From the NCBI GenBank assembly GCA_008690995.1, contig VRMN01000003.1, forward strand, positions 620,001 through 684,000: a stretch of 64,000 nucleotides of DNA, in the 5' to 3' direction. The DNA comes from Porphyridium purpureum. Lineage: Eukaryota > Rhodophyta > Bangiophyceae > Porphyridiales > Porphyridiaceae. Made by a program: the position numbers and the translations under genes. Shown here in pieces: positions 5,510 to 36,072 of the stretch; positions within the stretch are counted from its first letter, which is position 1; each line of letters starts with the position of its first letter. The notes beneath the pieces are model-generated. The model was not told the DNA's origin. It ran no database searches and worked only from the letters and a program-made list of their open reading frames with translations.

Positions 5510-6715
5510 TTAAGCCACGCTCGACAGTTTCAGCCCTGCTTCATTCAGAATCTTCGCGAGCTCGCCATCTGCATACATGCGCTTCATATTCTCTGCCGTT
5601 CCCAGGTGCCGCTTTTGGATGAAGACGTTCGGCACCGTCGACTGCTTGGTCAGACGTTCGAGGGCGGCAATCAGATCTGGTGAATCCTCCACTTTGTACT
5701 CTGTGTAGGGAACCGCGAGCTTCGTAAAAATCTGGCGCACCTCTTCACAGAATGGACAACCGCTCTTCGAGAACATCACTATAGAAGACGACGCAATCTT
5801 GTCACGCAGGTCATTATCCGCCCTCTCCAACGCCACTGCATCCTGGCTGATATTGCCCTTGTGCAGGCCACACTCTTTCTGGGTTGCCTCTTCCCACCAC
5901 CAGCGCCCTTCGCGTTCATGCTGATTGGGCAATACTGGCTTCGTGCACGGCTCACAGCCAATCGAGGTGAAGCCACGCAGGTGGAGCGGGTTGTAGGGGA
6001 TCTCTACGATGCGAATCATTGACCAAACGTCCGCAGAAGATGTGTTTGCAAGTGGGTTAAACTTGATCAGGTCCGAGTCGTTCGCTCCTCGGAACGCGGG
6101 ATCCACCTGGCACATGGGTACCTCCGTGCGAGTGCCGGGCGACTGGTCCTTTCGCTGGCCCGTGATCCACGCCTTGAGCGTGCCCAGTTTTTTGCGAAGC
6201 GGACGCACTTTGCGAACGCGGCAGCATTCTTGATGACCGTCCTCGTAAAACGAGAAGAGGCCCTTTTCGTTCACGAGCGCCTCAACCTCACCAGCATCCC
6301 CGTAGCAGTACTCGATCCTGATACCATAATGCTTCTCCACCTCCGCGTAATACCGCAATGTCTCTGCATGTAGCCGGCCGGTCTCGAGGGCAAACACACG
6401 GAAGGGCCGGCCGGTGCGCTGAGCGTATTCGATGAGCACCACGTCCTCCGCCCCCGAAAACGCAATTGCCGCATCCTTGCCAAAGCTCTCCAACGCCTTG
6501 TCCATGACCTCGACGGGGTCAGCGCGCTCCTTGGACCATTTCGCACCCAAAGTGTTCCAATCCTCGGACATGCGCAGAAGCTGAGCCACGGAGGCGCGCC
6601 GAGCGCGGCGCGGAGCCCCGGAGAGCCGCGAACGCGAGCCAATTCTGCTGCAAAGCGCAGTGCGGCGGCTGTAAGCCGGCGCGGTCTCAGCTCCCCCATA
6701 CACGATAAAAGCCAT
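5510..6715 (-). CDS. APR: Plastid APS reductase with glutaredoxin-like domain
   Basis: Adenylyl-sulfate reductase reduces APS to sulfite in plastid sulfate assimilation. From the ATG at 6715 it has 401 residues. About residues 1-48 are rich in Ala, Arg and Ser, start MAF, and fit a plastid transit peptide ending near LLRMS. The reductase domain (about 50-290) has the FSGAEDV nucleotide loop (86-92), a CC pair (164-165) and CxxC (254-257) that ligate a 4Fe-4S cluster, and the catalytic ECGLH (281-285). The CC and CxxC pairs mark an APS rather than a PAPS reductase. The C-terminal domain (about 305-401) carries CPFC (320-323), the redox site of a glutaredoxin-type electron donor. This is the plant/algal fused architecture. 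It diverges from CPSF73. Confidence 0.95.
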
Positions 6716-9688: not shown

Positions 9689-12154
9689 TCAGAAAACGTC
9701 TCCTTTTGAATCGATGGCAATCGGCGGTGCACCCCCGGGCCGTTTTTCAAAAGCAAGCTCTCGTCCAGCGCGCCACGTACCACCTTCTAGGATTTTGGCC
9801 ATCGGCATCACTCTTTCCGTCTTGCCTAGGCGATCCCAGATTTCGATAGCAATCTTGTCGAGCAAGGATACTGTGATAGCTCTCCACTCCACAATAACAG
9901 GATCATCCACAGCAAAAGTCTTCCCAAATACTTCAGCTTCATTCTTTGGAACAAGAAGCTTCGTATCGAGCAGCAAACCACCATTCCTGTATTCCGCCAA
10001 GCCGGTGAGGAGCCACTGATCGACGAAAGTGACGCCTAGCCTCTCCAGAGGTTCAATAAGCGAGTACGTGAGCCACTGGGCAAGCTTGTGAAAAGGAACC
10101 ATGTCCGCATACCCCGGCGCCGAGGATTTATTGAGGCGTACAAGACCATCATGCACGTATGCATCACCCACTCCCAGACCTGAATGATCTGGGAAGACTG
10201 AAGAAAGTCCGTCCATCACTGCCTGCCACAACACCCGAATCGAAACTCGCTGCGAGCTTGAATACGAATGTTTCAAAATGTAATCGACGATATTTCCTGG
10301 TCGAAAAACTCCTGTCGGGGATCCAAAGAACTGAGGCGAATTTTCCAATGCGAGTGCCAGCCTTTGGAGCATTTCATAACGCCCTTCTATGCCCACCAGC
10401 GGATTTCCTTCATTCACCTGAAAACCCAGGCTCAAATCGGAAAGGTGTAGTGAACGTAACCCCATCGAATCCACACGCATCTCACTTTCGCAGGACGAAA
10501 AAGAACCATTTCTGAAAAGATCAAGAGATGCTATGGCCAAACCTTCGCTTCGCGAGAACGTTCGCTCTCCCCATGAATGGTCCGTGTACTTCCAGCCCAA
10601 CCCAGCGCCAGCATCCAGCAAAACAGACACAGTGCACAGGTCCACGTAACGGCGAGTTCTTTCGAGGGCATCGACATTAAATCGTTTCCAACGGGCACTC
10701 AATTCACCGACGCGGTCGATATCTCCAGACTCAAAGTGTCGGAAGCGTGAGTGGCGCGGAATTTGCAAATCTGGATAGTGCCGTTTCATGCAATTCAACA
10801 CTGTACTCACAGTTGTGTCCATCTTTGAACGGTCAATTTCAAACCGGGCAAGCTCATGGTTCTCGGAGGCCAAATCGTGAAGGATCTTGCACCGCTTCCG
10901 TATGGTCTCCAATTTAAACACCTCTCGGCGTTCAGCATTCTCATCAGTCTTGCGGGGCTGGAAGCCCTGGTAACCTGACGAAATCTTCGCGCTGATTTCA
11001 ACGTACGCATCTGCAGGGACCATTTCTTCAGGCAACGACTCACGATTGACCACATGAATACGGCCGCACTCGGTGATTGCTTGGTATTTGTCCTTTGACA
11101 TTGAAAGCAGATAGTCAATTTTCTGGATGCCTAGCCAGTGGTATACATCTGGCATAAGCTCCTGCGCTCGCGCGTCCACCACACCGGCAATCTTTTGCGT
11201 CATTTCAAAGTATGTCTCCGGTCGGTCGCCACCCTCTTGGTAGCGGCGAAGGTTGTAGACTCGGAATTTGGTGACTTCTCCCAGAGCTCGGCCCTCTTTC
11301 GCAAAGTAGGCAATGACGCCGAAACCGTTCTTCTGCGCGGTCTCAACACCATGTTTGATTGCGTGGACAAGATACGGTCGGCAAGAACAAATGGAGGTCT
11401 GAAAGGCGTCAGATCCAGTGCACTGATCATGAGGCCTCGAAGATACGGGACGAGTATTGTCATGGATTGCCGAGAAATCCCCAAAGCAGTAAACTGTGGT
11501 CCCACCCATTTGCGGCAAAAAAACATCATTCGCAGAGTCGAGTACGCCAGGGATCTGGGTCCAGTCAAAAAGAGCTTGCCGCAGTTTCCTTTCGTCCGCC
11601 TGAACTTTTGCTGCAATGGAAGGTATGTGCCAAACTGGATCGATTGCCACCTTAACGCAGTGGATCATGTTGTTTTGATCCACAATGTTTCCATCGGACA
11701 AGAGTTCACCTCGCAGCTCTGGGATATCCATGGATGCCAGCGTGGCCGAGATCGTAGGCCGTATCGCCTCCATCCCGTAAGGATCGAAGCTCGAAATTTT
11801 ACGCCAATTCACGCGAGTACGGGGATCATCCAAATGCGCTTTCAAGGGAGGCACGAGCCATTCTTTCAGATGCGGCTGCGGCTCCCCACGCAGAGACCCA
11901 AGATGCTTACCACCTTTCCTGGATTCAGCAACTGCGTGATAAACCGCATGCGAGCCTCCGTACATGCCGGCGACACCCTCCATTCTTTGCAGTCGGTCGT
12001 GTAACCCCACCCAATCCACGTTCGTCGCATCGCCAGTCTGGCTGGCCGCGGCCAGGGTCGATCTCAGTCTCGCGTGCGGTCGGAATAGCGACGACGGCCC
12101 ACGATGCGCACGCGAGGATGGCAGAGCATGGCGAATGAAAGTCAAATGTGACAT
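9689..12154 (-). CDS. Urc1-Urc4 fusion: GTP cyclohydrolase II-like plus DUF1688
   Basis: The product has 821 residues from the ATG at 12154. Residues about 45-400 match the GTP-cyclohydrolase-II-like Urc1 type: HDQCTGSDAFQTSICSCRPYL carries the three zinc cysteines (C245, C256, C258), and YFAKEGRALG follows as the substrate-binding stretch. Residues about 410-821 match the Urc4/DUF1688 family (LDAGAGLGWKY, RSEGLAIASLDLF). In fungi and bacteria these two proteins act in the URC pathway of uracil catabolism and are usually encoded apart; here they share one chain. The N-terminal 40 residues are Arg/Ser/Ala-rich and may target an organelle. An in-frame extension to 12361 exists, but a promoter-type ACTGTAC lies inside it at 12290, so I prefer the shorter form. 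Confidence 0.88.
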   Translation of the reverse strand: MSHLTFIRHALPSSRAHRGPSSLFRPHARLRSTLAAASQTGDATNVDWVGLHDRLQRMEGVAGMYGGSHAVYHAVAESRKGGKHLGSLRGEPQPHLKEWLVPPLKAHLDDPRTRVNWRKISSFDPYGMEAIRPTISATLASMDIPELRGELLSDGNIVDQNNMIHCVKVAIDPVWHIPSIAAKVQADERKLRQALFDWTQIPGVLDSANDVFLPQMGGTTVYCFGDFSAIHDNTRPVSSRPHDQCTGSDAFQTSICSCRPYLVHAIKHGVETAQKNGFGVIAYFAKEGRALGEVTKFRVYNLRRYQEGGDRPETYFEMTQKIAGVVDARAQELMPDVYHWLGIQKIDYLLSMSKDKYQAITECGRIHVVNRESLPEEMVPADAYVEISAKISSGYQGFQPRKTDENAERREVFKLETIRKRCKILHDLASENHELARFEIDRSKMDTTVSTVLNCMKRHYPDLQIPRHSRFRHFESGDIDRVGELSARWKRFNVDALERTRRYVDLCTVSVLLDAGAGLGWKYTDHSWGERTFSRSEGLAIASLDLFRNGSFSSCESEMRVDSMGLRSLHLSDLSLGFQVNEGNPLVGIEGRYEMLQRLALALENSPQFFGSPTGVFRPGNIVDYILKHSYSSSQRVSIRVLWQAVMDGLSSVFPDHSGLGVGDAYVHDGLVRLNKSSAPGYADMVPFHKLAQWLTYSLIEPLERLGVTFVDQWLLTGLAEYRNGGLLLDTKLLVPKNEAEVFGKTFAVDDPVIVEWRAITVSLLDKIAIEIWDRLGKTERVMPMAKILEGGTWRAGRELAFEKRPGGAPPIAIDSKGDVF

Positions 12155-12388
12155 CGAGGCTGAGCGCACGGGATGGTTCCTCTTGCGCGCTGACTTGATC
12201 ACGCAAGTACAGACAGGGCGCAGGGCCGCGTTTATGCGAAGTACTGATTTGCAAATTAAGGGCCTAGAGAGGTGCGCGAGATTACTTACACTGTACACAA
12301 ACAACCAATTTAAGTCTACAAATGAGCGCGGCAATTCGGGGCCATTGCCGCAAGACATCAAAGAACTGGCCGATACGGCTCGGCCGTC
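12155..12388. promoter_or_regulatory. Promoter region of the Urc1-Urc4 gene with ACTGTAC
   Basis: This short spacer separates two genes on the minus strand. ACTGTAC at 12290-12296 lies 136 bp before the chosen ATG, the distance typical of this motif in the window. Confidence 0.4.
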
Positions 12389-15300
12389 CTAGTCGCTTGA
12401 TTCATCCAACCTCAAAAGGGCACGGCGGCACGTCTCGTACGTGTAAAAACTCACCATCGATACAGGGAACGCCTTCAGAAAATTAGGTATCCAGCCCCGA
12501 TATAGACGGCGCACGCCGTACTCCTTCAGAAGTTCTCGCATTGTAGCACGCATAGAAAGAGGGGCGCGGGCTCCCTTCGAATCGGACATCACAGCAGCTC
12601 TGGCCTCCCAGCCCGCAGCAGCTGACAGCGATTCTGAGGCTGCGGCAGTGCCCCGCAAACCTGCGTTTTGCTGCTGCAAGTACTGATACAAGTGCTGAAC
12701 CTGCATGCATCGCCTGCAAGTGTCCAACGGGTAAGATGCCGCTTGAGCAACAAGAGATGAAACAACTCCGCAGCTTATAGCAAATCCGGGTGTCGGGTGT
12801 CCAGAACCATCGTTCAGCTTGGGCAGCATTGGACGCAACGCTTCGTATGTCGCAAACGACAAACCCACGTACGGGAAGACACCAAGCATTGAGGCAACAA
12901 GGCCATGGTAAAGAGAGCCTGGGCCAAACGCACGACGTGCACCTTTTAGCCCGTCCAAAACACCTCGATGCGGATGGAAGGCGTTCGTTTGGACACTCAA
13001 CCTCGCATGTATTACGTCAATTGGATACGTGATTAGTGTAGCAGCCATGCCGGCGGTTCCAGCCAGGACAATTGACTCCGCCATGGTAGGTCCGCTATTT
13101 CGTAAGGATTGTGCGGACGATGAAACACTGCTCTTCATCAAACCCGTGGATTTGAACACAGAGCTGCCCAGTTCGTACACTAATCGAAATTGATCAACCA
13201 GCAAAAGCTGCAAAAGAGCGGTGGGAATAATCCTCAAAATATTGGCACCATTACCGCGAAAGCCACCGGCAAGAAAAGATCCACGGTCATTTTGAATCAT
13301 CCATCGAAATGTCTGAAAAAGAGTCACGCCTCGAGCGGCTGCTCCTGTTTGCATCAGAATTTTTGCCCGTTCTAGAGGAGCCACGACGCAGCGGGAGACG
13401 ACACCCGCAATGACGACACAAATCAGATGAGATATCTTGCTTCCTGACGAGCGCGAGTCAATTTGTGCAAGTGCTGTCCGGCCGGGCTTTACCCGTGCAA
13501 AGTAATCAGAATTTCGTGTCTGCGCGCCGAGCAACGGATCTCCAACATCATGTAGTCCAGTTCCATGCTCGTAGTCATTTTGCGCTGGGGCTTCGAAGTC
13601 GTGAAGCATGTGCTTCATTAGAAAACGAATATCTTCCACGAAACGTGGCGGTAAAATGTCTTTCGACAGCTGACAGAATTCCTTGTACTGAATGACACGT
13701 TGCCCATCCTTGCCAAAAGCACGCTCACGGAGTTTTCGTGACTTTTGATCCGTATCATTCAATAATTCTTGTGCATGCTCATCTATCTCAGCGTAGTCAT
13801 TGAGTAACGACTGAAACTCTTCAAAGTCGACAAACCCAGAGTTGTTGCGGTCCATCAGCCGAAATGCAAATTGTAGCTCGGCATTTGGTTGGTTCAGCAA
13901 AATGTCAAAACGAACAAACTCCCAGAAGTCAAGCAACAAGTCGTCAACTTCCTCGTCAAGAAAATCATGGCGGTTCCCGGTCACTAGCATTAAGAGCAAG
14001 GCCTCGATTCGACGTTTCTTCGGATTCGGAATATCTAGGCTCTCAATATTCGCGAAGCGAAGGAAGTCACGCCCTGTCATCATCTTCAATTCCGCAGAAT
14101 CGCTACCTGGAACACGATTAGGTCGTGAAACGGACGCATACTGATTAAACACAGCCTTCAAATACTGAGTACCACCACCTAGACACAGCTGATGGAAACT
14201 TTCCGTGTTGATGGCCCAACACTCCACATCGGTGCGGGCACGTACGGTTGCAGCTCGTGGTACATCATACATAAGACTAAGTTCGCCGAAGGATGCTCCT
14301 GGTCCCAAGGTTGTCACAAGATTCTCTGTTAGCGCAGAGTCACGATTGGGAGCAATTTCAGTTTTGCGTTTCCGCTGGGAATTTTTCTTCGGGTCCGACT
14401 TCTCGTTGATCAGCTTGGGGTGCGAGACCAACCTCTCTACTTCACCACTTTTGATGATGAAGAAGTTCTCTCCCCGGTCACCCTGCGAAAAGATAACGTC
14501 TCCGGCGCGAAAGGTGACTGGGAAGAAAGCATCAACTTCACGTGGTCCGATCCTATCCATATTTCGAAAAAGAAAATGGTTTTTGATGAGCTCCCGAAGC
14601 TCTCGGCGATCAAGTCGTGCGTAGACTTTGCCGGCGTCACTGCCCGCATCACGAAGCTTCTCGAAAGTTGGTCGATCCACGGTCCACAAGAGGCTCGGCT
14701 CGACGGCACGAACTGTTCCCGTGCGCGGCACGTTGAAGGAGAAAGCAGTCATTCCACAGGACGTGCCTGGGCCTAACGTAGTTACAAGTGTCGGCTGACC
14801 GCGCTCTCCACCTTGTGCATAGCTTTTGTCGATGAATCGCTCCAGGCGCCCGCTTTCCACGATAAAGAAGGAGTCTCCGTAATCACCCTGATGGAAAACC
14901 ACATCACCAGGATTCAGAATAACCGCGCGAAAGCTTTTGATCAAATGGGCGCGCTTGTACTCGTCCGTGATGCTCGACGAAATAGGGGTTCGCTTCAAGA
15001 CCTCCCGAATTGTGTGGCGCGACTCACGGCTTGGCGAATCCCCGGCCTTGACACCGTTCAACTCTGATATCTTTGCATGCCGAACTTTGATGGGCTCCTT
15101 ATTACGGCGTGGCCACAGCCACTGACTAATATCCTCCTCACTGTCTTTTTTCTCCCGTTTGTTGGACGCCACGCTGCCTGCCTCTCCAGCTTTACGAAAG
15201 TGGAAGCTTTGGTCCTTGATGAATATTTCTTCCGAAAGACGCGCTCCGCGGAGCAAATGAACTCCCGGAGGATTCGTTTGCTCACTTGAAAAGTCCTTGG

Positions 15301-16075
15301 GGTTGTACCCAGCAGCGGGCGGGTAAGTTTCGAGCAGTCCTAAACGCTGATACGCAGCTGCTACAAGTTCTGAGCAAAACACCTTGGACAGATCGTCGAC
15401 AGCCTCGAAAACATCTGCGTGGGCCCGCTTAATTTCCTCTTCCAGGCGGATCTGAATAACAGCCACTGCGCCCGCCACTCGCTTGCGCTCCGATTCCAGA
15501 GAACGCCTCTGGAACAAAGTCAGAGCCGCCTCCTCTAGTTCGCGGTTAATCTCTCGCAATTGAGCCTTTTTCTCTAACAGCAGAGCATGCATGCGTTCGC
15601 GCTCCTGCTTCCCTAAGGGGTCAATCACGCTTTTGATCATCGTGCCGGCCGCAGACTCGTATGGGGTACCCAGCATTTCATTGGCAAAATCAAACAAGGC
15701 TCTCCGATCTCGATCGGAGCGCACGATGTTCAGACGACGAACTGCCACTTCATTGGACTTTGAGCGTGCCACACGCTCGGCTAGGCTGCGCAGTTTGACA
15801 CCACCGAAATCCGCTTCCAGAAAGAGGAGTTCACCAGTGTCCGGGTGCTTGACAACCATACCCACGTGATCCCAGCGAGAATTAGACACCATCTTGGCGG
15901 CGGCGCACACAAGCATTGCATAAATTTTCATTTTCCGGCACGAGCGGTTGAAGAGCACGACATCACCCGAGTCTAACCCAGCGGGTAGCTGCGCCGCGCC
16001 GATAGGCACTGGGATTGCTGTATTGGATCCATCGCTTTCGGAAGGGGAGCGCTGGTGACCTTCAGCAGCAGACAT
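12389..16075 (-). CDS. Papain-like hydrolase/cNMP-binding/EF-hand/mitochondrial carrier fusion
   Basis: One open frame of 1228 residues joins four modules. About 36-250 is a permuted papain-fold (NlpC/P60, YiiX-type) domain with WDHVGMV (His70), an acidic LEAD and FCSELV (Cys234), split by a helical insert (about 155-225). About 378-470 and 495-635 are two cyclic-nucleotide-binding folds. The second has FGELSLMYDVPRAATVRA, the full phosphate-binding cassette. The first has CGMTAFSFNVPRTGTVRA, with the key Glu and Ala replaced, so it probably does not bind nucleotide. An EF-hand loop DRNNSGFVDFEE lies at about 741-752. About 885-1228 is a three-repeat mitochondrial carrier with PLERAK, YPIDVIHAR and YPLDTCRR. 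EF-hand plus carrier resembles Ca-regulated ATP-Mg/Pi carriers; the rest is unusual. It suggests a carrier gated by Ca and cyclic nucleotides (inference). Confidence 0.9.
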   Translation of the reverse strand: MSAAEGHQRSPSESDGSNTAIPVPIGAAQLPAGLDSGDVVLFNRSCRKMKIYAMLVCAAAKMVSNSRWDHVGMVVKHPDTGELLFLEADFGGVKLRSLAERVARSKSNEVAVRRLNIVRSDRDRRALFDFANEMLGTPYESAAGTMIKSVIDPLGKQERERMHALLLEKKAQLREINRELEEAALTLFQRRSLESERKRVAGAVAVIQIRLEEEIKRAHADVFEAVDDLSKVFCSELVAAAYQRLGLLETYPPAAGYNPKDFSSEQTNPPGVHLLRGARLSEEIFIKDQSFHFRKAGEAGSVASNKREKKDSEEDISQWLWPRRNKEPIKVRHAKISELNGVKAGDSPSRESRHTIREVLKRTPISSSITDEYKRAHLIKSFRAVILNPGDVVFHQGDYGDSFFIVESGRLERFIDKSYAQGGERGQPTLVTTLGPGTSCGMTAFSFNVPRTGTVRAVEPSLLWTVDRPTFEKLRDAGSDAGKVYARLDRRELRELIKNHFLFRNMDRIGPREVDAFFPVTFRAGDVIFSQGDRGENFFIIKSGEVERLVSHPKLINEKSDPKKNSQRKRKTEIAPNRDSALTENLVTTLGPGASFGELSLMYDVPRAATVRARTDVECWAINTESFHQLCLGGGTQYLKAVFNQYASVSRPNRVPGSDSAELKMMTGRDFLRFANIESLDIPNPKKRRIEALLLMLVTGNRHDFLDEEVDDLLLDFWEFVRFDILLNQPNAELQFAFRLMDRNNSGFVDFEEFQSLLNDYAEIDEHAQELLNDTDQKSRKLRERAFGKDGQRVIQYKEFCQLSKDILPPRFVEDIRFLMKHMLHDFEAPAQNDYEHGTGLHDVGDPLLGAQTRNSDYFARVKPGRTALAQIDSRSSGSKISHLICVVIAGVVSRCVVAPLERAKILMQTGAAARGVTLFQTFRWMIQNDRGSFLAGGFRGNGANILRIIPTALLQLLLVDQFRLVYELGSSVFKSTGLMKSSVSSSAQSLRNSGPTMAESIVLAGTAGMAATLITYPIDVIHARLSVQTNAFHPHRGVLDGLKGARRAFGPGSLYHGLVASMLGVFPYVGLSFATYEALRPMLPKLNDGSGHPTPGFAISCGVVSSLVAQAASYPLDTCRRCMQVQHLYQYLQQQNAGLRGTAAASESLSAAAGWEARAAVMSDSKGARAPLSMRATMRELLKEYGVRRLYRGWIPNFLKAFPVSMVSFYTYETCRRALLRLDESSD

Positions 16076-16446
16076 TGCCACCCGATAGCGCCGCGCGACA
16101 GCGTCTCGCCCTCACTCTTACTCGTAGACCTTCGAAAGGTCGAATTCAGCGATTCCAATGATCCAGTCTCGCGCGAGTGAGTACAGTACCAAAATTCAGA
16201 ACTGAACCTTCTATCCTCGTCATCATGTGTCCGTTCCGCCGAATGTGCCCCGGCAAGGACAGTCAAGGTTGCGGACGAAGCCAGCTCTAGTTTCCGCGGA
16301 AACAACAGCCAAGCAACACCCGAATCCTCAACGGGTGCGGTCGCCTTGGCCCGCTGTGTATCTTGCAGTATCTGATTACTTCTGTACGTCCCATCTGCCC
16401 GTCGCCAGCGCGCAAGCCATCTCAGCTTTCGGTTAGAGACCAAGAG
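16076..16446. promoter_or_regulatory. Divergent promoter with GTACAGTACC
   Basis: This 371-bp spacer lies between the fusion-carrier gene and the acylphosphatase gene, which point away from each other. AGTACAGTACC at 16180-16190 is the recurrent motif, about 105 bp before the left start and 257 bp before the right one. Nothing else was recognised. Confidence 0.45.
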
Positions 16447-16872
16447 ATGGCGCACCAAGTCAAAATAGTTGTGCGCGGGACTGTGCAGGGCGTATTCTTT
16501 CGCGATGAAACAGTGAACAAGGTGGCAGAGATTAATGGTGGTCAGAACAAAGTCGTGGGGTGTGTGCGCAACATGGCAGACGGCTCCGTGTATATTTGCG
16601 CCCTGAGCGAGGACAAGAGCGCGCTGGAGGAACTCTCGGCATGGGCTCACCATGGCCCGGAACGCGCAAAGGTGAAGAAGATTGAGGAGGAATGGACTTT
16701 TGTAAGGGACACGTCCAAGTACTCGGACTTCACGAAGCTGAGAGGCTTGTACGCGGATCGTGCACAGAAGCATTTGTATAGTGCTCTTGCAGAGGATGGC
16801 ACCGAAGGTCCAGAGCAGCTCACGCCCGACAGCGGTGTCGAGACAATCAACTCGCCGGCTGTTGAAGGGTAG
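16447..16872 (+). CDS. Acylphosphatase family protein
   Basis: Acylphosphatases hydrolyse carboxyl-phosphate bonds of small acyl phosphates. The product has 141 residues from the ATG at 16447. The core (about 1-90) shows the two family signatures: GTVQGVFFRD with the phosphate-binding loop and catalytic Arg, and GCVRNMADGSV with the catalytic Asn. The usual length is about 95 residues; here a 50-residue polar tail follows, containing an acidic stretch and no known motif. A stretch of 28 codons upstream is open in frame (from 16363) but starts at a weak position, so I chose the ATG directly before the conserved VKIVVRG strand. Cytosolic location is inferred from the lack of a clear leader. Confidence 0.9.
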   Translation: MAHQVKIVVRGTVQGVFFRDETVNKVAEINGGQNKVVGCVRNMADGSVYICALSEDKSALEELSAWAHHGPERAKVKKIEEEWTFVRDTSKYSDFTKLRGLYADRAQKHLYSALAEDGTEGPEQLTPDSGVETINSPAVEG

Positions 16873-17045: not shown

Positions 17046-18995
17046 TTAAAGACTCAGGATTGATGTGTCTTGTGCAATGTGCTTTCCTGTCCGGGCAGCA
17101 CGCTTCTCCATGAGAAACTTGTCGCGCTGACGACTCGCTTCGCGAGCCAATAACTCCTCACGCTCCAATTCCCTGAATCGATCACGAGTTTGGCACGTCT
17201 CACACGTACACGCTTTTTCATGATCGCTGGCAGCCTCCTCCACACACGTCGACAAGTCCTTCAAACTCTTCAAGCGGCCGTGCGAAAGAAATTCATCACG
17301 AAGACGCATCATTTCCGATCGTTCCATTTCTTCAATCTCCATCTTCCGAAAAAGGCTCACCAGCTTTTCGGTTTCAGGAGTGGCGCCGTACGCCGCCGAC
17401 GTCGTGACTGCTTCCGACTCGACAGCTTTCTCGTCCGACACTGCTTCAATATTTTGGGACGAATGGGGCTGCTCTTTCCTGACAGTTTCAAGCACCCTCT
17501 GCAAAAAGGATGGTGTCGTGCGCTCGCAATCGTCTCCACAAGGCGTTTCTTCCGTGTTTTCATGTTCCTCATCAAAAGTCGCCGTGAGCTCCAAGTTTTC
17601 CGATGGTTCTCCGGTACTTCCAGCTGCAGGTGCGTTCGCATAGTAATTACCTGACGCAGCCTCGTCCAGCATTTCCTGGGCCTGTCTTGGTGCGGATCCG
17701 GAGGCTTTCTCCCATGTTTCAGCTTCAGCTTCGAAAGCAGCTATCGTCTCTTCCTTTGCATTTGAAGGGTGGACTGCATTGTCGACTTGCTCACCATTCT
17801 CAGAGTCTTCATCAATATTCCCTGGCAATAACGCCAAACCAAATAATTCAGCTGCACGCTCAACCTGCGGCAATACTTTCGATGAATTTCCGGTGTTTTC
17901 GCGGGATAACACTAGCGGGTCGGATGACTCTGTGATGGCCCTAGGCGACTGCGGCAGGACCGGAAGAACTTGTTGAGGTTCGGGAGAAAACAATCCTTCT
18001 CCATTTGGTTCGGGCTTCTCAGCAACAACATCCGCCTCCTCTGAAACCGGCTCAGCTTTCTGCTCTACTTCACCAGACTCTTCCTCTTTCGGTTCAAGCT
18101 CGGCGGTCTCGTCAAAAGGAAGAGAGACTTGCTTCGCGTCATTAACAATGTCCACCAGCGCGTTTTCGGGCGTTCCTAGTTCAACGCTCCTTTCCGCAGT
18201 CATTTCCTCAATTGCACTTGTCGATATTTTCGGCTCAGACACTTTTCCCGGAACAGCAGCAGAAGCTCCCGAGTCCAGGCAAGCATTAGTATTCGCATTT
18301 CCCAACCCTTCTGCGGTCTGTCTCTCGGGAGCTGCCGGCGCTAGAAGAGTTTTCCAATCGCGCAGGATCATGGAAGTGTGCTTAAAATCCTCACTACTGT
18401 TTCTCTTCCTTTCGCACGGTACGTCGCCGAGGTCCCTCGGAGACTTGGCCTCTGGTGTGATCGCCTCGAGTTCGCCCTTGGCTACAACAGGGGACACGTT
18501 ATCGTACAAATCAACCGGCGTTGCGCCCTTCGACAGTGTAGATTTGGCATGCACAATGTCACCCTGAAACGCAGATGCACCTAAGAGGTCTGACGGTTCG
18601 ATCTCATGCTCTTTGGAGATACTCAGCGGCGAGCGCTCAGCGTCTTCCAGGTGCACCGTATCAGAAAACATGGCTTTGGCGGCGTCCATTGCAGTTTCAA
18701 CGACAGACTCCTCCCCCGGTTCAATCCTCCCTGACAAAGACCCTCGCCCATGATTGACTTTTTGCGTTGTGTCATCGCTTGAGGCAAACTTGCTGTTCCC
18801 ACCCTTGCGCCTGCCCAGGAAAGGAACCAAGTTCCGAACTCTCTTGCCCGAGTTCTCGCGGGTCACGGCGCTGTGGAGCGCGTGGTCCTGATCAGCCGCT
18901 GAAGGCGGAGGAAGCTCATCCCCATGTGTCTCTTCGACCCTGCCAGTGCTGCTGGTGCGCTGGCCGAGAAAGAGCGTCTTGATCCTCTGCATCAT
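17046..18995 (-). CDS. Acidic, largely disordered protein with duplicated C-terminal motif
   Basis: The product has 649 residues from ATG 18995. The first 500 or so are low-complexity, rich in Glu, Ala, Ser and Pro, and predicted disordered by eye, with a basic patch near the N-terminus (KRVRNLVPFLGRRKGG). Near the C-terminus a 26-residue unit occurs twice without gaps (about 550-575 and 605-630). The shared positions are F-R, E, E-E, E, R, R-D, F-L and R. A small cysteine pair, CTCETC, sits between the copies. The units look helical and may be short protein-binding motifs. I do not recognise the family. The 3' end converges with the acylphosphatase gene. Confidence 0.7.
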   Translation of the reverse strand: MMQRIKTLFLGQRTSSTGRVEETHGDELPPPSAADQDHALHSAVTRENSGKRVRNLVPFLGRRKGGNSKFASSDDTTQKVNHGRGSLSGRIEPGEESVVETAMDAAKAMFSDTVHLEDAERSPLSISKEHEIEPSDLLGASAFQGDIVHAKSTLSKGATPVDLYDNVSPVVAKGELEAITPEAKSPRDLGDVPCERKRNSSEDFKHTSMILRDWKTLLAPAAPERQTAEGLGNANTNACLDSGASAAVPGKVSEPKISTSAIEEMTAERSVELGTPENALVDIVNDAKQVSLPFDETAELEPKEEESGEVEQKAEPVSEEADVVAEKPEPNGEGLFSPEPQQVLPVLPQSPRAITESSDPLVLSRENTGNSSKVLPQVERAAELFGLALLPGNIDEDSENGEQVDNAVHPSNAKEETIAAFEAEAETWEKASGSAPRQAQEMLDEAASGNYYANAPAAGSTGEPSENLELTATFDEEHENTEETPCGDDCERTTPSFLQRVLETVRKEQPHSSQNIEAVSDEKAVESEAVTTSAAYGATPETEKLVSLFRKMEIEEMERSEMMRLRDEFLSHGRLKSLKDLSTCVEEAASDHEKACTCETCQTRDRFRELEREELLAREASRQRDKFLMEKRAARTGKHIAQDTSILSL

Positions 18996-28224: not shown

Positions 28225-31086
28225 CTATCTCGAATTTTCAAGACAAGCAACACCCAATAAGGTTTTGCATTTCAAAAACATTTCTCGAGGAACCACTTTG
28301 GTTAGGAAATCTGCTGCCTGATCTGATGTGCGAATGTAAATAGCCTTGACTATTCCCCGTTGCTGACATTCGCGAGCATAGTGCTTTCTCACGTCAATGT
28401 GCTTCGACCTTTCGTGCACAATCGGGTTCTCACTCAGTTTCAGTGCAGCATCATTGTCACAAAACATTGGAATCGATTTCGACTTGAATCCTAGGAATTC
28501 CATGAGATATTGAAACCACTGGGCTTCTTTACATGCATCCGAGAGAGCCATGTACTCTGCTTCGGTTGTGGACAGCGCCACAGTTGGTTGTAGCCTGGAT
28601 TTCCAGGAGACAACTGATCCATTGATCGTGAAAGCATATCCGGTGGTTGACCTTCGCGTTCGAAGATCACTAGCATAGTCTGAATCAACGTAACCAATTA
28701 GGTCGGAGTTGCCATTTGAGCTAAATTGGAGACCATAATTTATGGTTCCTTTAAGATATCGCAGCACTCCCTTTGCCGCATTCCAATGGGATTCATTGGC
28801 ATTTGCCATTGATCGTGCAAGCACTCCCACGGCGAAGGAAATATCCGGACGCGTGCAAGTGCACAAATACATTAGTGCTCCCACGAGTTCCATGTAAGGC
28901 ATCTTGCATGGTTCTGCAGTAGCAGTATACCACTTCGTATCCTTTTCCATGGGAAGCTTCCTTGGATTCGCCGATTCCATTCCGAACCTTTCCAGGATGG
29001 TTTGGACATACAAGCTTTGATTAAGTCTGATAATGCCATTCCTTTGATCATAATCAAGAGTGTAGCCGGCAAATTTTTGCTTGACCACTTGCCCAAGATC
29101 CCTGACTTCAAACTTGCCTTGCAAATGCAGAAGCACTTCATTTGAAGTAACTTCGTCTTCACCTATGAAGACCAAGTCATCGACGTAAATCATGATATAC
29201 GGACCATTTGGACCCTTAGAAAACAGACAAGGATCTGCCGTACTTTCGGAAAAATTGATTTCTTTAAGTGCTTGCACAAGAACTTGATTCCAAGCTCGAG
29301 ATGCCTGCTTCAATCCATAGATTGCTTTACGCAGTTTCAGGACTTTTCCTCCTTCATGTACGAATCCAGGAGGCTGTTCCATGAAAATTTCTTCATGAAG
29401 TTCTCCATTGAGAAACGCAGTCACCACATCGAAAAGTCGAATTTTCAACTTTCTTGCAGCTGCTACTGCCAGGACCGTTCGAATAGTGTTGTGTCGCACA
29501 ACAGGGCTGAACACTTCGTCGTAGTCCAAACCAGGTTTCTGAGTGAAACCTTTTGCGACAAGTCGACACTTGAACCGATCAATTTGTCCGTTGACATTAT
29601 ATTTGATCTTAAAAACCCATTTGCATCTGACAGGAATTCGGTCCTGTGGACGATCGACGAGCTCCCACGTGCAGTTGCCAGTGAGAGATTCCAATTCTCT
29701 ATTCAGAGCTTCCAGCCATTGCTCAGAGAAGTCACCCTTTAGTGCTTCTTCGACTGACCGAGGTTCAGAAACGGTGGAAATTATTCCAACGAATTGATTT
29801 GCGACATATCCACTGTCTTGACTTTCGTCATCCTCAGTATTCCCAAAGTTTCCATTTGGAGCTTTTTGGAACCCTAAATCTTTCGAATTATTCTGAACTT
29901 TTTCCAGAAACGTTTCTCCGATTTCATTTGAAATAGAATATTCCTGACTGCGATCATCCATTTGTCGAGTGGAATCTGTTTCAAAATTTTTTGACGCGAT
30001 TTGAGACTTTTCATCAAACGACTTCGAGAAATCTTTTGGAAACAACTCTTCGACAATTTTATCGAAGTTGGAAAAATATTCCGAATCGTGGATTTCATGT
30101 TCATGAACATCTATTCCAACGACAGACTCATCGAAAGTGACATTTCGACTTTCAACGACCGTGCCATCCGATAGAAGAATGCGATAAACGGAATGGACAT
30201 TTCCATAACCGACCAAGCATCCAATTGCAGATCTTGTTTCTAGTTTTCCTCGCAATTGCTTAGGAATATGAACAAACGCTCTCGATCCGTAGATTCTGAG
30301 ATTGCTGAGATCTGGCCTTTGCCTGAATGCAATTTCTATCGGCGTTTTCCCGCGATTATTTGAAATGCGATTTCGCAAATAATTCGCAGTCAACAAAGCA
30401 TTACTCCAATTTTCCAAAGGTAGATTACTATCAAACAATAAGCTTCGAACCTTTTCGAGTAATGTCCGATTCATGCGTTCAGCCATACCATTAAGTTCTG
30501 GCGTGTAAGCAGAGGTATTTTCCCAAGTAATTCCAGAGTCTTGGAGATGCCTTTGCACATAAAGGCTTGCGAATTCGCCACCTTTGTCGGACCGAACTCT
30601 TTTTGCCTTTGCACCAAGAGTCGTTTCGAGATATTTAAGTGTGCGCAGTAACATTTCACCCGCTTCACTTTTTCGCTCGAGCAAGTGGACGACACTCAAA
30701 CTTGAGCATTCGTCGACGACAACTAGAAAATATCGATGGTCGTCAAAACTCGAAGGAGTGAGTGGTCCGCATACATCAGTATGAAGGACTTCTCCCGGAA
30801 CCGCCGAAATGGAATTCAATTTCCGCTTCTTAAAGGGAGTTCGTGTTCCCTTTGCCTTTTGGCAAATCACACAATGGTATTCATCCGGAACTTTTAAGTC
30901 CGCGGGAATTCCCTGTACACAATTTTGCGTATTTTTCAGACCAGCAAGTCCAGGATGACCAAGTCGACGGTGAAATAGCTCAAACTTATTTGAAGCTGTG
31001 ATTGCATTTATTCTAGCGGCGGATAGTTTGATCATTAAATCACCATCCCCAACCGCTAGGACGGGCCCATCTGACCCAAAATGCAA
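28225..31086 (-). CDS. Integrase, reverse transcriptase and RNase H part of outer copia element
   Basis: This is the 3' portion of the outer element's polyprotein, about 953 residues. In order it shows the pre-integrase zinc finger (HRRLGHPG, CVICQKAK), the integrase core (HTDVCGP, SDKGGEF), reverse transcriptase with YVDDLVF, and RNase H (VDSDYASD, STTEAEYMALSDA). Integrase before reverse transcriptase is the Ty1/copia order. The upstream part lies beyond the inner element. Confidence 0.9.
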   Translation of the reverse strand: MHFGSDGPVLAVGDGDLMIKLSAARINAITASNKFELFHRRLGHPGLAGLKNTQNCVQGIPADLKVPDEYHCVICQKAKGTRTPFKKRKLNSISAVPGEVLHTDVCGPLTPSSFDDHRYFLVVVDECSSLSVVHLLERKSEAGEMLLRTLKYLETTLGAKAKRVRSDKGGEFASLYVQRHLQDSGITWENTSAYTPELNGMAERMNRTLLEKVRSLLFDSNLPLENWSNALLTANYLRNRISNNRGKTPIEIAFRQRPDLSNLRIYGSRAFVHIPKQLRGKLETRSAIGCLVGYGNVHSVYRILLSDGTVVESRNVTFDESVVGIDVHEHEIHDSEYFSNFDKIVEELFPKDFSKSFDEKSQIASKNFETDSTRQMDDRSQEYSISNEIGETFLEKVQNNSKDLGFQKAPNGNFGNTEDDESQDSGYVANQFVGIISTVSEPRSVEEALKGDFSEQWLEALNRELESLTGNCTWELVDRPQDRIPVRCKWVFKIKYNVNGQIDRFKCRLVAKGFTQKPGLDYDEVFSPVVRHNTIRTVLAVAAARKLKIRLFDVVTAFLNGELHEEIFMEQPPGFVHEGGKVLKLRKAIYGLKQASRAWNQVLVQALKEINFSESTADPCLFSKGPNGPYIMIYVDDLVFIGEDEVTSNEVLLHLQGKFEVRDLGQVVKQKFAGYTLDYDQRNGIIRLNQSLYVQTILERFGMESANPRKLPMEKDTKWYTATAEPCKMPYMELVGALMYLCTCTRPDISFAVGVLARSMANANESHWNAAKGVLRYLKGTINYGLQFSSNGNSDLIGYVDSDYASDLRTRRSTTGYAFTINGSVVSWKSRLQPTVALSTTEAEYMALSDACKEAQWFQYLMEFLGFKSKSIPMFCDNDAALKLSENPIVHERSKHIDVRKHYARECQQRGIVKAIYIRTSDQAADFLTKVVPREMFLKCKTLLGVACLENSR

Positions 31087-31101
31087 AACAGATGAACTAT
31101 C

Positions 31102-31426
31102 TGTTATGAATCCAGGGTTTCGGTAGATTCCCTCCCCAGGTAAAGTAGTAATACCATGGGGAATGTTTCAGCTCCAACTTTCTGTATTTCTCCAACTTTC
31201 TGTATTTCTCCAACTTATAGTAAATAAGGGTTTTTGCCCTGGAGGTACAGTTGGCAATCTCACTAGTGAAAGCACTACGATTGCCTATATGAAGAGCTTA
31301 GCGATGGCCGAGGCTCGGAGTCCCCGGATGACGAAGGTAAGGTTAGTTGCAAGGGCGACGAAGGGGACACGCAACTGCGTTAGTGACAAGTCACAAAGAC
31401 TCCCCGATACATCAGACCTTTTAATA
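31102..31426 (+). repeat. 5' LTR of inner copia element
   Basis: 325 bp from TGTTATGAATCC to TTTTAATA. It contains GGTACAGTT at 31244-31252 and the doubled 18-bp pyrimidine-rich unit. It matches the LTR at 35748-36072. Confidence 0.95.
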
Positions 31427-31440
31427 GGTTATGAGCCCAG
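31427..31440 (+). other. Primer-binding site matching initiator tRNA-Met anticodon arm
   Basis: GGTTATGAGCCCAG follows the LTR directly. It is nearly complementary to the anticodon stem-loop region (CUGGGCCCAUAACC) of eukaryotic initiator tRNA-Met. Internal half-tRNA priming of this kind is known for Drosophila copia and Ty5. The site overlaps the first ATG of the polyprotein frame at 31431; the ATG at 31446 may be the used start. Confidence 0.65.
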
Positions 31441-34400
31441 ACGCGATGGCGTTTACGTTTGATGCGTCGAAGCTGTCCGCGCTTGCGAACGGCGTGGAAA
31501 AGTTCAATGGCGAGAATTACGACATTTGGGCACGCCGCACGAAGCTCGCGTTGCGTGTGGTGAAGCTGTGGCCCGTCGTTGCGGGGATGGTCGTTCGCCC
31601 ATCGTCGTCGTCGCGTGCAACTACCGGGATGACGGCAGAAGAGTGGGACGATGCGGACCTGGCGGGACAGTTCTTTCTGTCCGGGGTCTTGGAGAACAGG
31701 TACGACCGTCTCGTCCGCGATAAGTCGTCGGCGGACGGTTGGTCCGCGGTGGCGAATTATGCGCACGATCAACTGTCGGCGCAGAAGTTCGCGTTTCGCA
31801 TGGCGCTGGAGCGCATTGTCCAGAACAAGAACGAGGCAATGGCCGAGTACTTGGATCGCGGAATCGGTCTGTGGGACAAGCTTGTCTCGATCGGTGAGCA
31901 AGTTCCCGAGGACCATGTCGTGCGTTATCTGGTGATCGGGCTCCGCAAAGAGTTTCAGGGGTCGAAGGACTACCTGCTGCATTCGGCGCCCACGGTCTCC
32001 GCAGCTCGGCTGCAACTGCTCCAGCTGGAGGCCGGAAAAGCGCTCGAGCGCACGTTGGCAGATGAGCCCCCGCCCATCGCAATGGCGGTGTCCCAGCGTC
32101 CGCAGCAACAGCAGCGTGATCGCTCAGCGGGTGTCGTGAAGACGGCACTCGTCAAGGAGAACCTGAAGTGTGGCTACTGCCACAAGGTTGGGCACGAGAC
32201 GAAGCGTTGCTTTAAGCGCAAGAATGACTTGCGCGACAAGGCTGCTGGTGCGAGTGGCGCAGCAGACCCGGAGGCAGTGAAACGCGGCATCGGAAAGCCG
32301 AATGCGCGGGTGAATGTGGTTCAGGTAAAAACCAAGGTGACGAAACCACCGGCTCCGGCGGCAAAGGCAGCCATTGAGCCAGGTTGGATGTCGTGGGAGG
32401 CCTACGCGAATAGCGTTGCGGGAAGGGGCGTGGTGCCAAAAGGCCCTTCTCTGGATATCCGCATGATTAGCCCCCCAGCGACCCCTGCACCAATCAATAA
32501 AGCCACCACTTCCATCTATGCCATCTGTGTCTCTGTTGTGCCCCACAAGCACAAGTCGCACAAATGGATGTTCGATTCTGGATCGGACAGACATATCACT
32601 TGGGATAGGTCTATTCTAATGAATGAAAGACCTTCTGATGAATCACTTGTTACTGTTGCCAACGGGGAACATGTTGAAGTTTCATTGATGGGTGATGTCA
32701 TGCTCAAAACAATTATTCAAGACAAGTTTAATGACTTGCGTCTTGAAAATGTTTTGTTGATCGAAAGCACACCCATAAATCTCCTTTCGACAAAGGTCGC
32801 AGCGAGAAAGGGCTGTGTCTTCAAACACGATGATAGTTCATCTGTTTTGCATTTTGGGTCAGATGGGCCCGTCCTAGCGGTTGGGGATGGTGATTTAATG
32901 ATCAAACTATCCGCCGCTAGAATAAATGCAATCACAGCTTCAAATAAGTTTGAGCTATTTCACCGTCGACTTGGTCATCCTGGACTTGCTGGTCTGAAAA
33001 ATACGCAAAATTGTGTACAGGGAATTCCCGCGGACTTAAAAGTTCCGGATGAATACCATTGTGTGATTTGCCAAAAGGCAAAGGGAACACGAACTCCCTT
33101 TAAGAAGCGGAAATTGAATTCCATTTCGGCGGTTCCGGGAGAAGTCCTTCATACTGATGTATGCGGACCACTCACTCCTTCGAGTTTTGACGACCATCGA
33201 TATTTTCTAGTTGTCGTCGACGAATGCTCAAGTTTGAGTGTCGTCCACTTGCTCGAGCGAAAAAGTGAAGCGGGTGAAATGTTACTGCGCACACTTAAAT
33301 ATCTCGAAACGACTCTTGGTGCAAAGGCAAAAAGAGTTCGGTCCGACAAAGGTGGCGAATTCGCAAGCCTTTATGTGCAAAGGCATCTCCAAGACTCTGG
33401 AATTACTTGGGAAAATACCTCTGCTTACACGCCAGAACTTAATGGTATGGCTGAACGCATGAATCGGACATTACTCGAAAAGGTTCGAAGCTTATTGTTT
33501 GATAGTAATCTACCTTTGGAAAATTGGAGTAATGCTTTGTTGACTGCGAATTATTTGCGAAATCGCATTTCAAATAATCGCGGGAAAACGCCGATAGAAA
33601 TTGCATTCAGGCAAAGGCCAGATCTCAGCAATCTCAGAATCTACGGATCGAGAGCGTTTGTTCATATTCCTAAGCAATTGCGAGGAAAACTAGAAACAAG
33701 ATCTGCAATTGGATGCTTGGTCGGTTATGGAAATGTCCATTCCGTTTATCGCATTCTTCTATCGGATGGCACGGTCGTTGAAAGTCGAAATGTCACTTTC
33801 GATGAGTCTGTCGTTGGAATAGATGTTCATGAACATGAAATCCACGATTCGGAATATTTTTCCAACTTCGATAAAATTGTCGAAGAGTTGTTTCCAAAAG
33901 ATTTCTCGAAGTCGTTTGATGAAAAGTCTCAAATCGCGTCAAAAAATTTTGAAACAGATTCCACTCGACAAATGGATGATCGCAGTCAGGAATATTCTAT
34001 TTCAAATGAAATCGGAGAAACGTTTCTGGAAAAAGTTCAGAATAATTCGAAAGATTTAGGGTTCCAAAAAGCTCCAAATGGAAACTTTGGGAATACTGAG
34101 GATGACGAAAGTCAAGACAGTGGATATGTCGCAAATCAATTCGTTGGAATAATTTCCACCGTTTCTGAACCTCGGTCAGTCGAAGAAGCACTAAAGGGTG
34201 ACTTCTCTGAGCAATGGCTGGAAGCTCTGAATAGAGAATTGGAATCTCTCACTGGCAACTGCACGTGGGAGCTCGTCGATCGTCCACAGGACCGAATTCC
34301 TGTCAGATGCAAATGGGTTTTTAAGATCAAATATAATGTCAACGGACAAATTGATCGGTTCAAGTGTCGACTTGTCGCAAAAGGTTTCACTCAGAAACCT

Positions 34401-35708
34401 GGTTTGGACTACGACGAAGTGTTCAGCCCTGTTGTGCGACACAACACTATTCGAACGGTCCTGGCAGTAGCAGCTGCAAGAAAGTTGAAAATTCGACTTT
34501 TCGATGTGGTGACTGCGTTTCTCAATGGAGAACTTCATGAAGAAATTTTCATGGAACAGCCTCCTGGATTCGTACATGAAGGAGGAAAAGTCCTGAAACT
34601 GCGTAAAGCAATCTATGGATTGAAGCAGGCATCTCGAGCTTGGAATCAAGTTCTTGTGCAAGCACTTAAAGAAATCAATTTTTCCGAAAGTACGGCAGAT
34701 CCTTGTCTGTTTTCTAAGGGTCCAAATGGTCCGTATATCATGATTTACGTCGATGACTTGGTCTTCATAGGTGAAGACGAAGTTACTTCAAATGAAGTGC
34801 TTCTGCATTTGCAAGGCAAGTTTGAAGTCAGGGATCTTGGGCAAGTGGTCAAGCAAAAATTTGCCGGCTACACTCTTGATTATGATCAAAGGAATGGCAT
34901 TATCAGACTTAATCAAAGCTTGTATGTCCAAACCATCCTGGAAAGGTTCGGAATGGAATCGGCGAATCCAAGGAAGCTTCCCATGGAAAAGGATACGAAG
35001 TGGTATACTGCTACTGCAGAACCATGCAAGATGCCTTACATGGAACTCGTGGGAGCACTAATGTATTTGTGCACTTGCACGCGTCCGGATATTTCCTTCG
35101 CCGTGGGAGTGCTTGCACGATCAATGGCAAATGCCAATGAATCCCATTGGAATGCGGCAAAGGGAGTGCTGCGATATCTTAAAGGAACCATAAATTATGG
35201 TCTCCAATTTAGCTCAAATGGCAACTCCGACCTAATTGGTTACGTTGATTCAGACTATGCTAGTGATCTTCGAACGCGAAGGTCAACCACCGGATATGCT
35301 TTCACGATCAATGGATCAGTTGTCTCCTGGAAATCCAGGCTACAACCAACTGTGGCGCTGTCCACAACCGAAGCAGAGTACATGGCTCTCTCGGATGCAT
35401 GTAAAGAAGCCCAGTGGTTTCAATATCTCATGGAATTCCTAGGATTCAAGTCGAAATCGATTCCAATGTTTTGTGACAATGATGCTGCACTGAAACTGAG
35501 TGAGAACCCGATTGTGCACGAAAGGTCGAAGCACATTGACGTGAGAAAGCACTATGCTCGCGAATGTCAGCAACGGGGAATAGTCAAGGCTATTTACATT
35601 CGCACATCAGATCAGGCAGCAGATTTCCTAACCAAAGTGGTTCCTCGAGAAATGTTTTTGAAATGCAAAACCTTATTGGGTGTTGCTTGTCTTGAAAATT
35701 CGAGATAG
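31431..35708 (+). CDS. Copia Gag-Pol polyprotein of inner element
   Basis: A single open frame of 1425 residues. Gag occupies about 1-340, with the zinc knuckle CGYCHKVGHETKRC near 250. Protease has WMFDSGSDRHIT near 380. A pre-integrase domain (HRRLGHPG) is followed by the integrase core (HTDVCGP, DKGGEF, then the conserved Glu region), reverse transcriptase (WVFKIKYN, YVDDLVF) and RNase H (STTEAEYMALSDA). The order protease-integrase-RT-RNase H defines Ty1/copia. A single-frame gag-pol is common in plant-type copia elements. Confidence 0.95.
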   Translation: MSPDAMAFTFDASKLSALANGVEKFNGENYDIWARRTKLALRVVKLWPVVAGMVVRPSSSSRATTGMTAEEWDDADLAGQFFLSGVLENRYDRLVRDKSSADGWSAVANYAHDQLSAQKFAFRMALERIVQNKNEAMAEYLDRGIGLWDKLVSIGEQVPEDHVVRYLVIGLRKEFQGSKDYLLHSAPTVSAARLQLLQLEAGKALERTLADEPPPIAMAVSQRPQQQQRDRSAGVVKTALVKENLKCGYCHKVGHETKRCFKRKNDLRDKAAGASGAADPEAVKRGIGKPNARVNVVQVKTKVTKPPAPAAKAAIEPGWMSWEAYANSVAGRGVVPKGPSLDIRMISPPATPAPINKATTSIYAICVSVVPHKHKSHKWMFDSGSDRHITWDRSILMNERPSDESLVTVANGEHVEVSLMGDVMLKTIIQDKFNDLRLENVLLIESTPINLLSTKVAARKGCVFKHDDSSSVLHFGSDGPVLAVGDGDLMIKLSAARINAITASNKFELFHRRLGHPGLAGLKNTQNCVQGIPADLKVPDEYHCVICQKAKGTRTPFKKRKLNSISAVPGEVLHTDVCGPLTPSSFDDHRYFLVVVDECSSLSVVHLLERKSEAGEMLLRTLKYLETTLGAKAKRVRSDKGGEFASLYVQRHLQDSGITWENTSAYTPELNGMAERMNRTLLEKVRSLLFDSNLPLENWSNALLTANYLRNRISNNRGKTPIEIAFRQRPDLSNLRIYGSRAFVHIPKQLRGKLETRSAIGCLVGYGNVHSVYRILLSDGTVVESRNVTFDESVVGIDVHEHEIHDSEYFSNFDKIVEELFPKDFSKSFDEKSQIASKNFETDSTRQMDDRSQEYSISNEIGETFLEKVQNNSKDLGFQKAPNGNFGNTEDDESQDSGYVANQFVGIISTVSEPRSVEEALKGDFSEQWLEALNRELESLTGNCTWELVDRPQDRIPVRCKWVFKIKYNVNGQIDRFKCRLVAKGFTQKPGLDYDEVFSPVVRHNTIRTVLAVAAARKLKIRLFDVVTAFLNGELHEEIFMEQPPGFVHEGGKVLKLRKAIYGLKQASRAWNQVLVQALKEINFSESTADPCLFSKGPNGPYIMIYVDDLVFIGEDEVTSNEVLLHLQGKFEVRDLGQVVKQKFAGYTLDYDQRNGIIRLNQSLYVQTILERFGMESANPRKLPMEKDTKWYTATAEPCKMPYMELVGALMYLCTCTRPDISFAVGVLARSMANANESHWNAAKGVLRYLKGTINYGLQFSSNGNSDLIGYVDSDYASDLRTRRSTTGYAFTINGSVVSWKSRLQPTVALSTTEAEYMALSDACKEAQWFQYLMEFLGFKSKSIPMFCDNDAALKLSENPIVHERSKHIDVRKHYARECQQRGIVKAIYIRTSDQAADFLTKVVPREMFLKCKTLLGVACLENSR

Positions 35709-35747
35709 AGGTGGAAGGCATGACGAAAAGTTGTCGCTGCGTGGGAG

Positions 35748-36072
35748 TGTTATGAATCCAGGGTTTCGGTAGATTCCCTCCCCAGGTAAAGTAGTAATAC
35801 CATGGGGAATGTTTCAGCTCCAACTTTCTGTATTTCTCCAACTTTCTGTATTTCTCCAACTTATAGTAAATAAGGGTTTTTGCCCTGGAGGTACAGTTGG
35901 CAATCTCACTAGTGAAAGCACTACGATTGCCTATATGAAGAGCTTAGCGATGGCCGAGGCTCGGAGTCCCCGGATGACGAAGGTAAGGTTAGTTGCAAGG
36001 GCGACGAAGGGGACACGCAACTGCGTTAGTGACAAGTCACAAAGACTCCCCGATACATCAGACCTTTTAATA
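35748..36072 (+). repeat. 3' LTR of inner copia element
   Basis: 325 bp, the same as the 5' LTR as far as I can read. It contains GGTACAGTT at 35890-35898. It is followed by the target duplication CTATC and then the continuation of the outer element. Confidence 0.95.

Follow-up and report, generated by a model that had tools for sequence, protein, structure and literature searches.

The stretch analysed here, hereafter the window, comprises 64,000 nucleotides of the red alga Porphyridium purpureum (contig VRMN01000003.1, positions 620,001 to 684,000). On its reverse strand, at positions 12389-16075, lies a single open reading frame in which a Peptidase_C92 hydrolase domain, two cyclic-nucleotide-binding (cNMP) domains, an EF-hand region and a three-repeat mitochondrial carrier follow one another (Table 1). 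The modules are known ones, their combination is unusual and the frame that joins them is well supported; as far as the searches reached, the combination is new and known from one genome.

Table 1. Features of the carrier fusion gene, with positions in the window and residues counted, here and throughout, from the ATG of the open reading frame
Feature	Positions	Strand	Residues and details
Single open reading frame, C92 - cNMP-A - cNMP-B - EF-hand region - mitochondrial carrier	12389..16075	-	1228 aa, ATG to TAG
Permuted papain-like C92 (YiiX/YaeF-like) domain	15290..15970	-	about 36-262, borders by eye; H70, E87, Y139, C234
Extra residues between Y139 and C234	15392..15652	-	about 142-228; coding score positive; helical in low-confidence model
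cNMP-binding domain A	14636..14983	-	about 365-480; SCGMTAF/VPRTGTV; M442 replaces binding Glu, R451 kept
cNMP-binding domain B	14111..14623	-	about 485-655; FGELSLMYDVPRAATV; E598, R607 kept; basic insert around 553-585
EF-hand region, MICU/AGC type	13586..14083	-	about 665-830
Sole EF loop fitting the PROSITE consensus, DRNNSGFVDFEEF	13814..13852	-	742-754
Candidate amphipathic helix before the carrier	13592..13645	-	811-828
SLC25-type carrier, three repeats	12401..13450	-	about 876-1225; PLERAK900, PIDVIH1018, PLDTCR1116; contact points R948, G1065-V1066, K1201

The reading frame and its modules

Under the standard code no internal stop interrupts the frame, and all 1228 codons are open. 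When positions 11889-16575 were shuffled 200 times with dinucleotide composition kept, the longest open reading frame averaged 146 codons and reached 311 at most. A coding score based on codon usage, trained on other genes in the window, was above zero in the frame in all 40 sliding segments of 60 codons taken in 30-codon steps; with finer steps of 10 codons, 4 of 117 segments in the carrier-gene frame scored zero or less. For six control genes, each left out of the training when scored itself, the corresponding counts were 1/35, 0/35, 0/78, 5/77, 0/121 and 0/71, and the fusion frame falls inside this range of 0 to 5 segments per gene. The four stretches between modules scored, in order, 0.29, 0.40, 0.25 and 0.13 per codon, so the module borders look coding.

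The Pfam search found the modules in this same order within the one frame, all above their cut-offs: Peptidase_C92 (E 4.6e-10), cNMP_binding (three stretches, E 5.9e-38, read as two folds of which the second is split by an insert), EF-hand_1 (E 1.8e-8) and Mito_carr (three stretches, E 1.4e-48). The other Pfam EF-hand models scored below their cut-offs in the 1228-residue protein. An initial annotation of this DNA had described one uninterrupted frame joining all modules in that order, and the frame length, the coding signal across the borders and the domain profiles bear out both points.

That two or more genes, or a gene with in-frame introns, have been read as one because the assembly is faulty or splice sites were overlooked is improbable. 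Such a misreading could draw on 34 in-frame donor/acceptor combinations, on a donor-like density of 2.98 per kb, intermediate between the 2.36 and 4.39 per kb of two other genes, and on the border between EF-hand region and carrier, which has the lowest coding score of the four. Against it stand the 1228 open codons, far above the shuffle maximum, the positive coding signal at every border and, among signs of misjoining, the absence of direct or inverted repeats of at least 20 bases within positions 12000-16800. The neighbouring genes are ordinary eukaryote genes, and several of them read as one long frame in which a Pfam model is matched almost completely.

Hydrolase, cyclic-nucleotide and calcium-binding modules

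The hydrolase domain matches PF05708 (Peptidase_C92) with 40.2 bits (cut-off 27), a match that spans only about residues 61-140, and the NCBIfam models YiiX (E 3.1e-6) and YebB (E 7.4e-5), both far below their equivalog cut-offs. In comparison with the 2if6 chain and the E. coli gene, the YiiX active-site residues His, Glu, Tyr and Cys are matched by H70, E87, Y139 and C234, in the same permuted order; this site is defined in PMC3142127 (cited, like the other papers below, from the available portion of its text). H70 and Y139 are invariant in all six aligned sequences. Tyr and Cys are separated by 94 intervening residues here (Y139 and C234), with some 80 extra residues, but by 12 in YiiX (Tyr115 and Cys128), and unlike the YaeF/YiiX-like enzymes this domain is fused to sensors and a carrier. 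Global alignments misplace the Cys across the insert, and C234 was assigned from local matches alone. The single-sequence structure model of the C92 part is unusable, with a mean predicted local distance difference test (pLDDT) score of 41.4; residues 161-220 reach 67-80 and are modelled as a long helix.

An acyl-amidase role may be suggested for this module from its family, because the YiiX pocket held a fatty acid and cleavage of a fatty acid-amino acid amide was proposed; the same source also mentions fusions that target the membrane and, in Plasmodium, a homologue carrying a PH domain (PMC3142127). That the C92-cNMP fusion came ready-made from bacteria was also considered and set aside. 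In one bacterial phylum, 36 of 299 genomes had C92 at E <= 0.001, and in 34 of the 299 the match exceeded the cut-off; stretches were taken from 10 of the 36. Six of these frames were scanned with Pfam and none carried a cNMP domain (0/6), which is weak evidence from a small sample; the other four, near 200-240 residues, were aligned only.

The tandem of cNMP folds resembles that of the PKA regulatory subunit. In the PDB search, PKA RI-alpha was the best match (E 9.1e-33), and its SFGELALIYGTPRAATV lines up with cNMP-B. Site B (FGELSLMYDVPRAATV compared with FGELALIYGTPRAATV) has both the Glu (E598) and the Arg (R607) of the phosphate-binding cassette, within FGEL (residues 596-599) and PRAATV (606-611). 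In PKA and PKG, the Ala of PRAAT favours cAMP over cGMP. One cAMP-type site in the tandem is likely, as judged from these residues, because the Glu of site A is replaced by M442 and site B is intact with the PRAAT Ala. Two differences from the PKA subunit are that site A here lacks its Glu and that the tandem is fused to a transporter.

For the EF-hand region, in which EF-hand_1 is located at residues 733-759, the best PDB match was 9k6m ('EF-hand domain-containing protein'; E 2.7e-9). It was followed by MICU2 chains (E 3.7e-6 to 1.2e-5), aligned through the MICU N-terminal EF lobe over 154 residues (665-818), and the AGC structure 4p5w (E 4.5e-6) aligned over 138 residues (669-806). NCS-1, a plant calcium-dependent kinase, calmodulin and troponin C gave similar E-values, with only 32 to 76 residues aligned. 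With a shorter query, SCaMC-1 matched along no more than 60-61 residues (E 1.9e-5 and 3.7e-5), and with the longer query of the EF-hand region it was absent from the 29 PDB sequences at E <= 1e-4.

The intact loop, DRNNSGFVDFEEF, can be aligned to DVNGDGSIDANEF of 9k6m and to the MICU2 loop at the corresponding place, which we take to be the canonical first MICU loop. As part of the calcium uniporter, MICU is a protein of its own and has two calcium-binding EF loops; the region described here is fused to a carrier and holds one loop that fits the PROSITE pattern. This pattern, used as printed in PMC6283063, is a strict one, and the aligned loop of MICU2 fails it too. The candidate helix at residues 811-828 has a hydrophobic moment of 0.55, the highest among segments starting at residues 655-880, and lies outside the top 15 of the whole protein.

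Carrier domain and proposed mechanism

The best PDB matches of the carrier domain were UCP2 and the ADP/ATP carriers. R948, T952, G1065, V1066 and Y1069 align with R, T, G, I and Y of ADP,ATP carrier protein 3, and K1201 aligns with R in UCP2. The repeat motif PX[DE]XX[KR] is exact in PLERAK and PLDTCR, and PIDVIH has H for K/R. Gate charges are largely kept, on the matrix side in these three motifs and at the opposite gate in YEALR and YETCR, with a D-x-x-R of repeat 1 that lacks the aromatic residue. Nucleotide carriers are recognised by G[IVLM] at contact point II (PMC7226361, PMC13385207) and amino-acid carriers by R[DE] (PMC7226361); G1065-V1066 fits the former and not the latter. Because its contact points match and its gate charges are largely kept, the carrier looks competent and of the nucleotide class, within which the sequence does not distinguish between CoA, ADP/ATP and related substrates.

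In the ATP-Mg/Pi carriers (APC/SCaMC, SLC25A23-25), as here, an N-terminal EF-hand region precedes a nucleotide-class carrier. Their proposed adenosine- and phosphate-binding residues are matched in kind by R948, G1065, V1066, Y1069 and K1201, and R895 is presumably the partner of APC1 R209. The human APC1 site comprises G353, I354, Y357, R209, K260 and K453, together with two acids, E264 and D361, that are missing in the ADP/ATP carrier (PMC6283063). By spacing and by alignment with the ADP/ATP carrier, these acids correspond to T952 and S1073 of the present protein. The ATP-Mg/Pi carriers also have four calmodulin-like EF-hands, whereas one consensus loop lies here in a MICU/AGC-like region, and a C92 domain and two cNMP domains are added. 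On the EF-hand type and on T952/S1073, a build identical to that of the ATP-Mg/Pi carriers was rejected.

The AGC proteins (aralar, citrin) likewise place an N-terminal EF-hand domain before a carrier and have one calcium loop, and 138 residues of their EF-hand region can be aligned. They differ in having eight EF-hands and a C-terminal domain with an amphipathic helix (PMC11539162), where the present chain ends 27 residues past K1201, and in the amino-acid-carrier R[DE] at contact point II (PMC7226361), where G1065-V1066 is found here. In its available portion, a 2025 review names no Ca-domain carrier type other than ATP-Mg/Pi and AGC (PMC12410006). On residue and domain comparison, the protein appears to fit neither of the two, because its EF-hand region is not APC-like, the APC acids are absent and the AGC C-terminal domain and R[DE] are not found. 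Of the initial annotation as a whole, the module order, the permuted hydrolase (with a C92 profile above cut-off and four matched site residues), the first cNMP fold without its binding Glu, the second with FGEL and PRAAT, and the three-repeat carrier all stand. Its comparison with calcium-regulated ATP-Mg/Pi carriers is weak, given one PROSITE loop in place of four calmodulin-like EF-hands, long matches to MICU2 and AGC, and T952 and S1073 in place of the acids.

Cytosolic calcium and cAMP enter the intermembrane space through porin, and by this route they would reach the sensors. The carrier would lie in the inner membrane with an N-terminus of about 870 residues in the intermembrane space; because the N- and C-termini of carriers face that space (PMC13385207), the N-terminal part would meet cytosolic calcium and cAMP. 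In ATP-Mg/Pi carriers, calcium displaces an amphipathic helix from the carrier (PMC6283063); the candidate helix at 811-828 has a comparable position, though it does not stand out within the protein. Our best guess is that ligand at cNMP-B and at the EF loop would shift this candidate helix, or the whole stack, and so open the carrier to an adenine nucleotide or CoA-like substrate, while the C92 domain beside it may act on a fatty-acyl amide or a lipidated protein. The principle would be that of the ATP-Mg/Pi carriers, an N-terminal sensor that gates a nucleotide carrier, with different parts. From the architecture we infer gating by calcium and cAMP; the substrate, the localisation and the single transcript are likewise predictions. 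Taken as a whole, the proposal of a mitochondrial carrier with several sensors, the product of one nuclear gene, combines a Ca/cAMP-sensing stack facing the intermembrane space, a carrier of the adenine-nucleotide or CoA class and a tethered acyl-amidase-like enzyme; we judge its chances to be evenly balanced.

A real fusion placed in another membrane, the plastid envelope or the peroxisome, with a cytosolic N-terminal stack that gates nucleotide or CoA transport there, seems unlikely to us. Some SLC25 nucleotide carriers do sit outside mitochondria, and no obvious presequence was seen by eye at the N-terminus; however, most SLC25 carriers are mitochondrial, many of them without a presequence, and the long matches of the EF-hand region, MICU2 and AGC, are mitochondrial proteins.

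Several observations weigh against the proposed multi-sensor carrier. The loop at residues 742-754 is the only one in the whole protein that fits the PROSITE consensus, and site A (SCGMTAFSFNVPRTGTV) has M442 for Glu, with the Arg retained; with cNMP-A lacking its Glu and one consensus EF loop, sensing may therefore be reduced. Because cGMP-dependent kinases match the tandem almost as well as PKA does (E 5.7e-32 and 9.1e-33), cAMP as the ligand rests on the PRAAT rule. Repeat 2 has the H of PIDVIH at the matrix gate, where K/R is expected. For the hydrolase, YiiX (2if6) ranked third in the PDB sequence search (E 0.44), after two GroEL entries that match the insert, and the match at C234 is a separate weak local segment (E 0.006 in a two-sequence comparison). 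Citrin keeps one calcium site, yet recent papers argue that it is not regulated by calcium (PMC11539162, PMC12410006), contrary to an earlier review in which AGC was counted as calcium-regulated (PMC6283063); an EF loop does not prove gating.

The lost Glu of cNMP-A and the single consensus EF loop would also suit a constitutive carrier whose added modules are scaffolding or remnants, with C92, cNMP and EF parts that serve dimerisation, anchoring or nothing now, and the citrin calcium site has itself been discussed as a possible remnant (PMC11539162). We doubt this reading, since the residues checked in cNMP-B, in the EF loop and in the C92 site are all in place, which decay would not favour. 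If the mitochondrial gating model is carried further, the protein could stand for a third class of mitochondrial carriers gated by second messengers, one built independently of the others: a cAMP site and a MICU-like calcium site on one chain would form a coincidence detector that gates adenine-nucleotide or CoA transport, and a tethered acyl-amidase would act on lipidated substrates at the inner-membrane surface; this is a tentative suggestion, clearly less probable than the general proposal.

Genomic surroundings, relatives and meaning

Next downstream of the carrier gene, at 9689-12358 (-), GTP cyclohydrolase II-like domains (GTP_CH_N, GTP_cyclohydro2) are joined to DUF1688. We take these parts to be URC1 and URC4 of uracil catabolism; if these identities hold, the fusion would link two steps of that pathway. 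At 12155-12391 (-), the two genes share a frame, in which one TAG is followed by 78 open codons up to the likely ATG of the downstream gene. With a score of -0.03 per codon, this stretch is probably not translated, which would make the common frame a coincidence. On the other side, an acylphosphatase gene lies at 16447-16872 (+), and 371 bases separate its ATG from that of the carrier gene on the opposite strand, so that a single bidirectional promoter may serve both genes.

Further away, pieces of Copia-type retrotransposons occupy 28225-37478, where a pol frame (28225-31035, -) and a gag frame (35931-37478, -) flank a gag-pol frame (31431-35708, +), an arrangement that looks like one element inserted into another. 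A fusion of PAPS-reductase and glutaredoxin at 5510-6715 (-) is presumably a plant-type APS reductase, and together with a B12-dependent methionine synthase at 40460-44269 (-) it would, we assume, suit an alga. At 17046-18995 (-) lies a 649-residue frame to which no Pfam model could be matched at E <= 0.1. The window yielded no tRNA, and a promoter and terminator scan built for bacteria gave nothing useful.

Relatives were sought in prokaryote, plasmid and viral collections, where misses say little on eukaryotes. No relative of the whole protein was found in viral contigs (0 among 5 pattern matches), in genome contigs (0 among 25) or in the phage collection, and none of the 330-residue C92 part alone in plasmids. 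With the C92 part and the YiiX alignment, 77 pattern matches were obtained; 9 of them are relatives, and their record titles are all bacterial. In titles and abstract beginnings of the open-licence PMC literature, no carrier with cNMP domains appeared among the matches listed.

If the proposal is true, a carrier with cNMP domains would bring cAMP control of metabolite exchange within one chain. The differing kind of EF-hand region would, moreover, add a case of convergent calcium-sensor fusion, a theme of PMC6283063.

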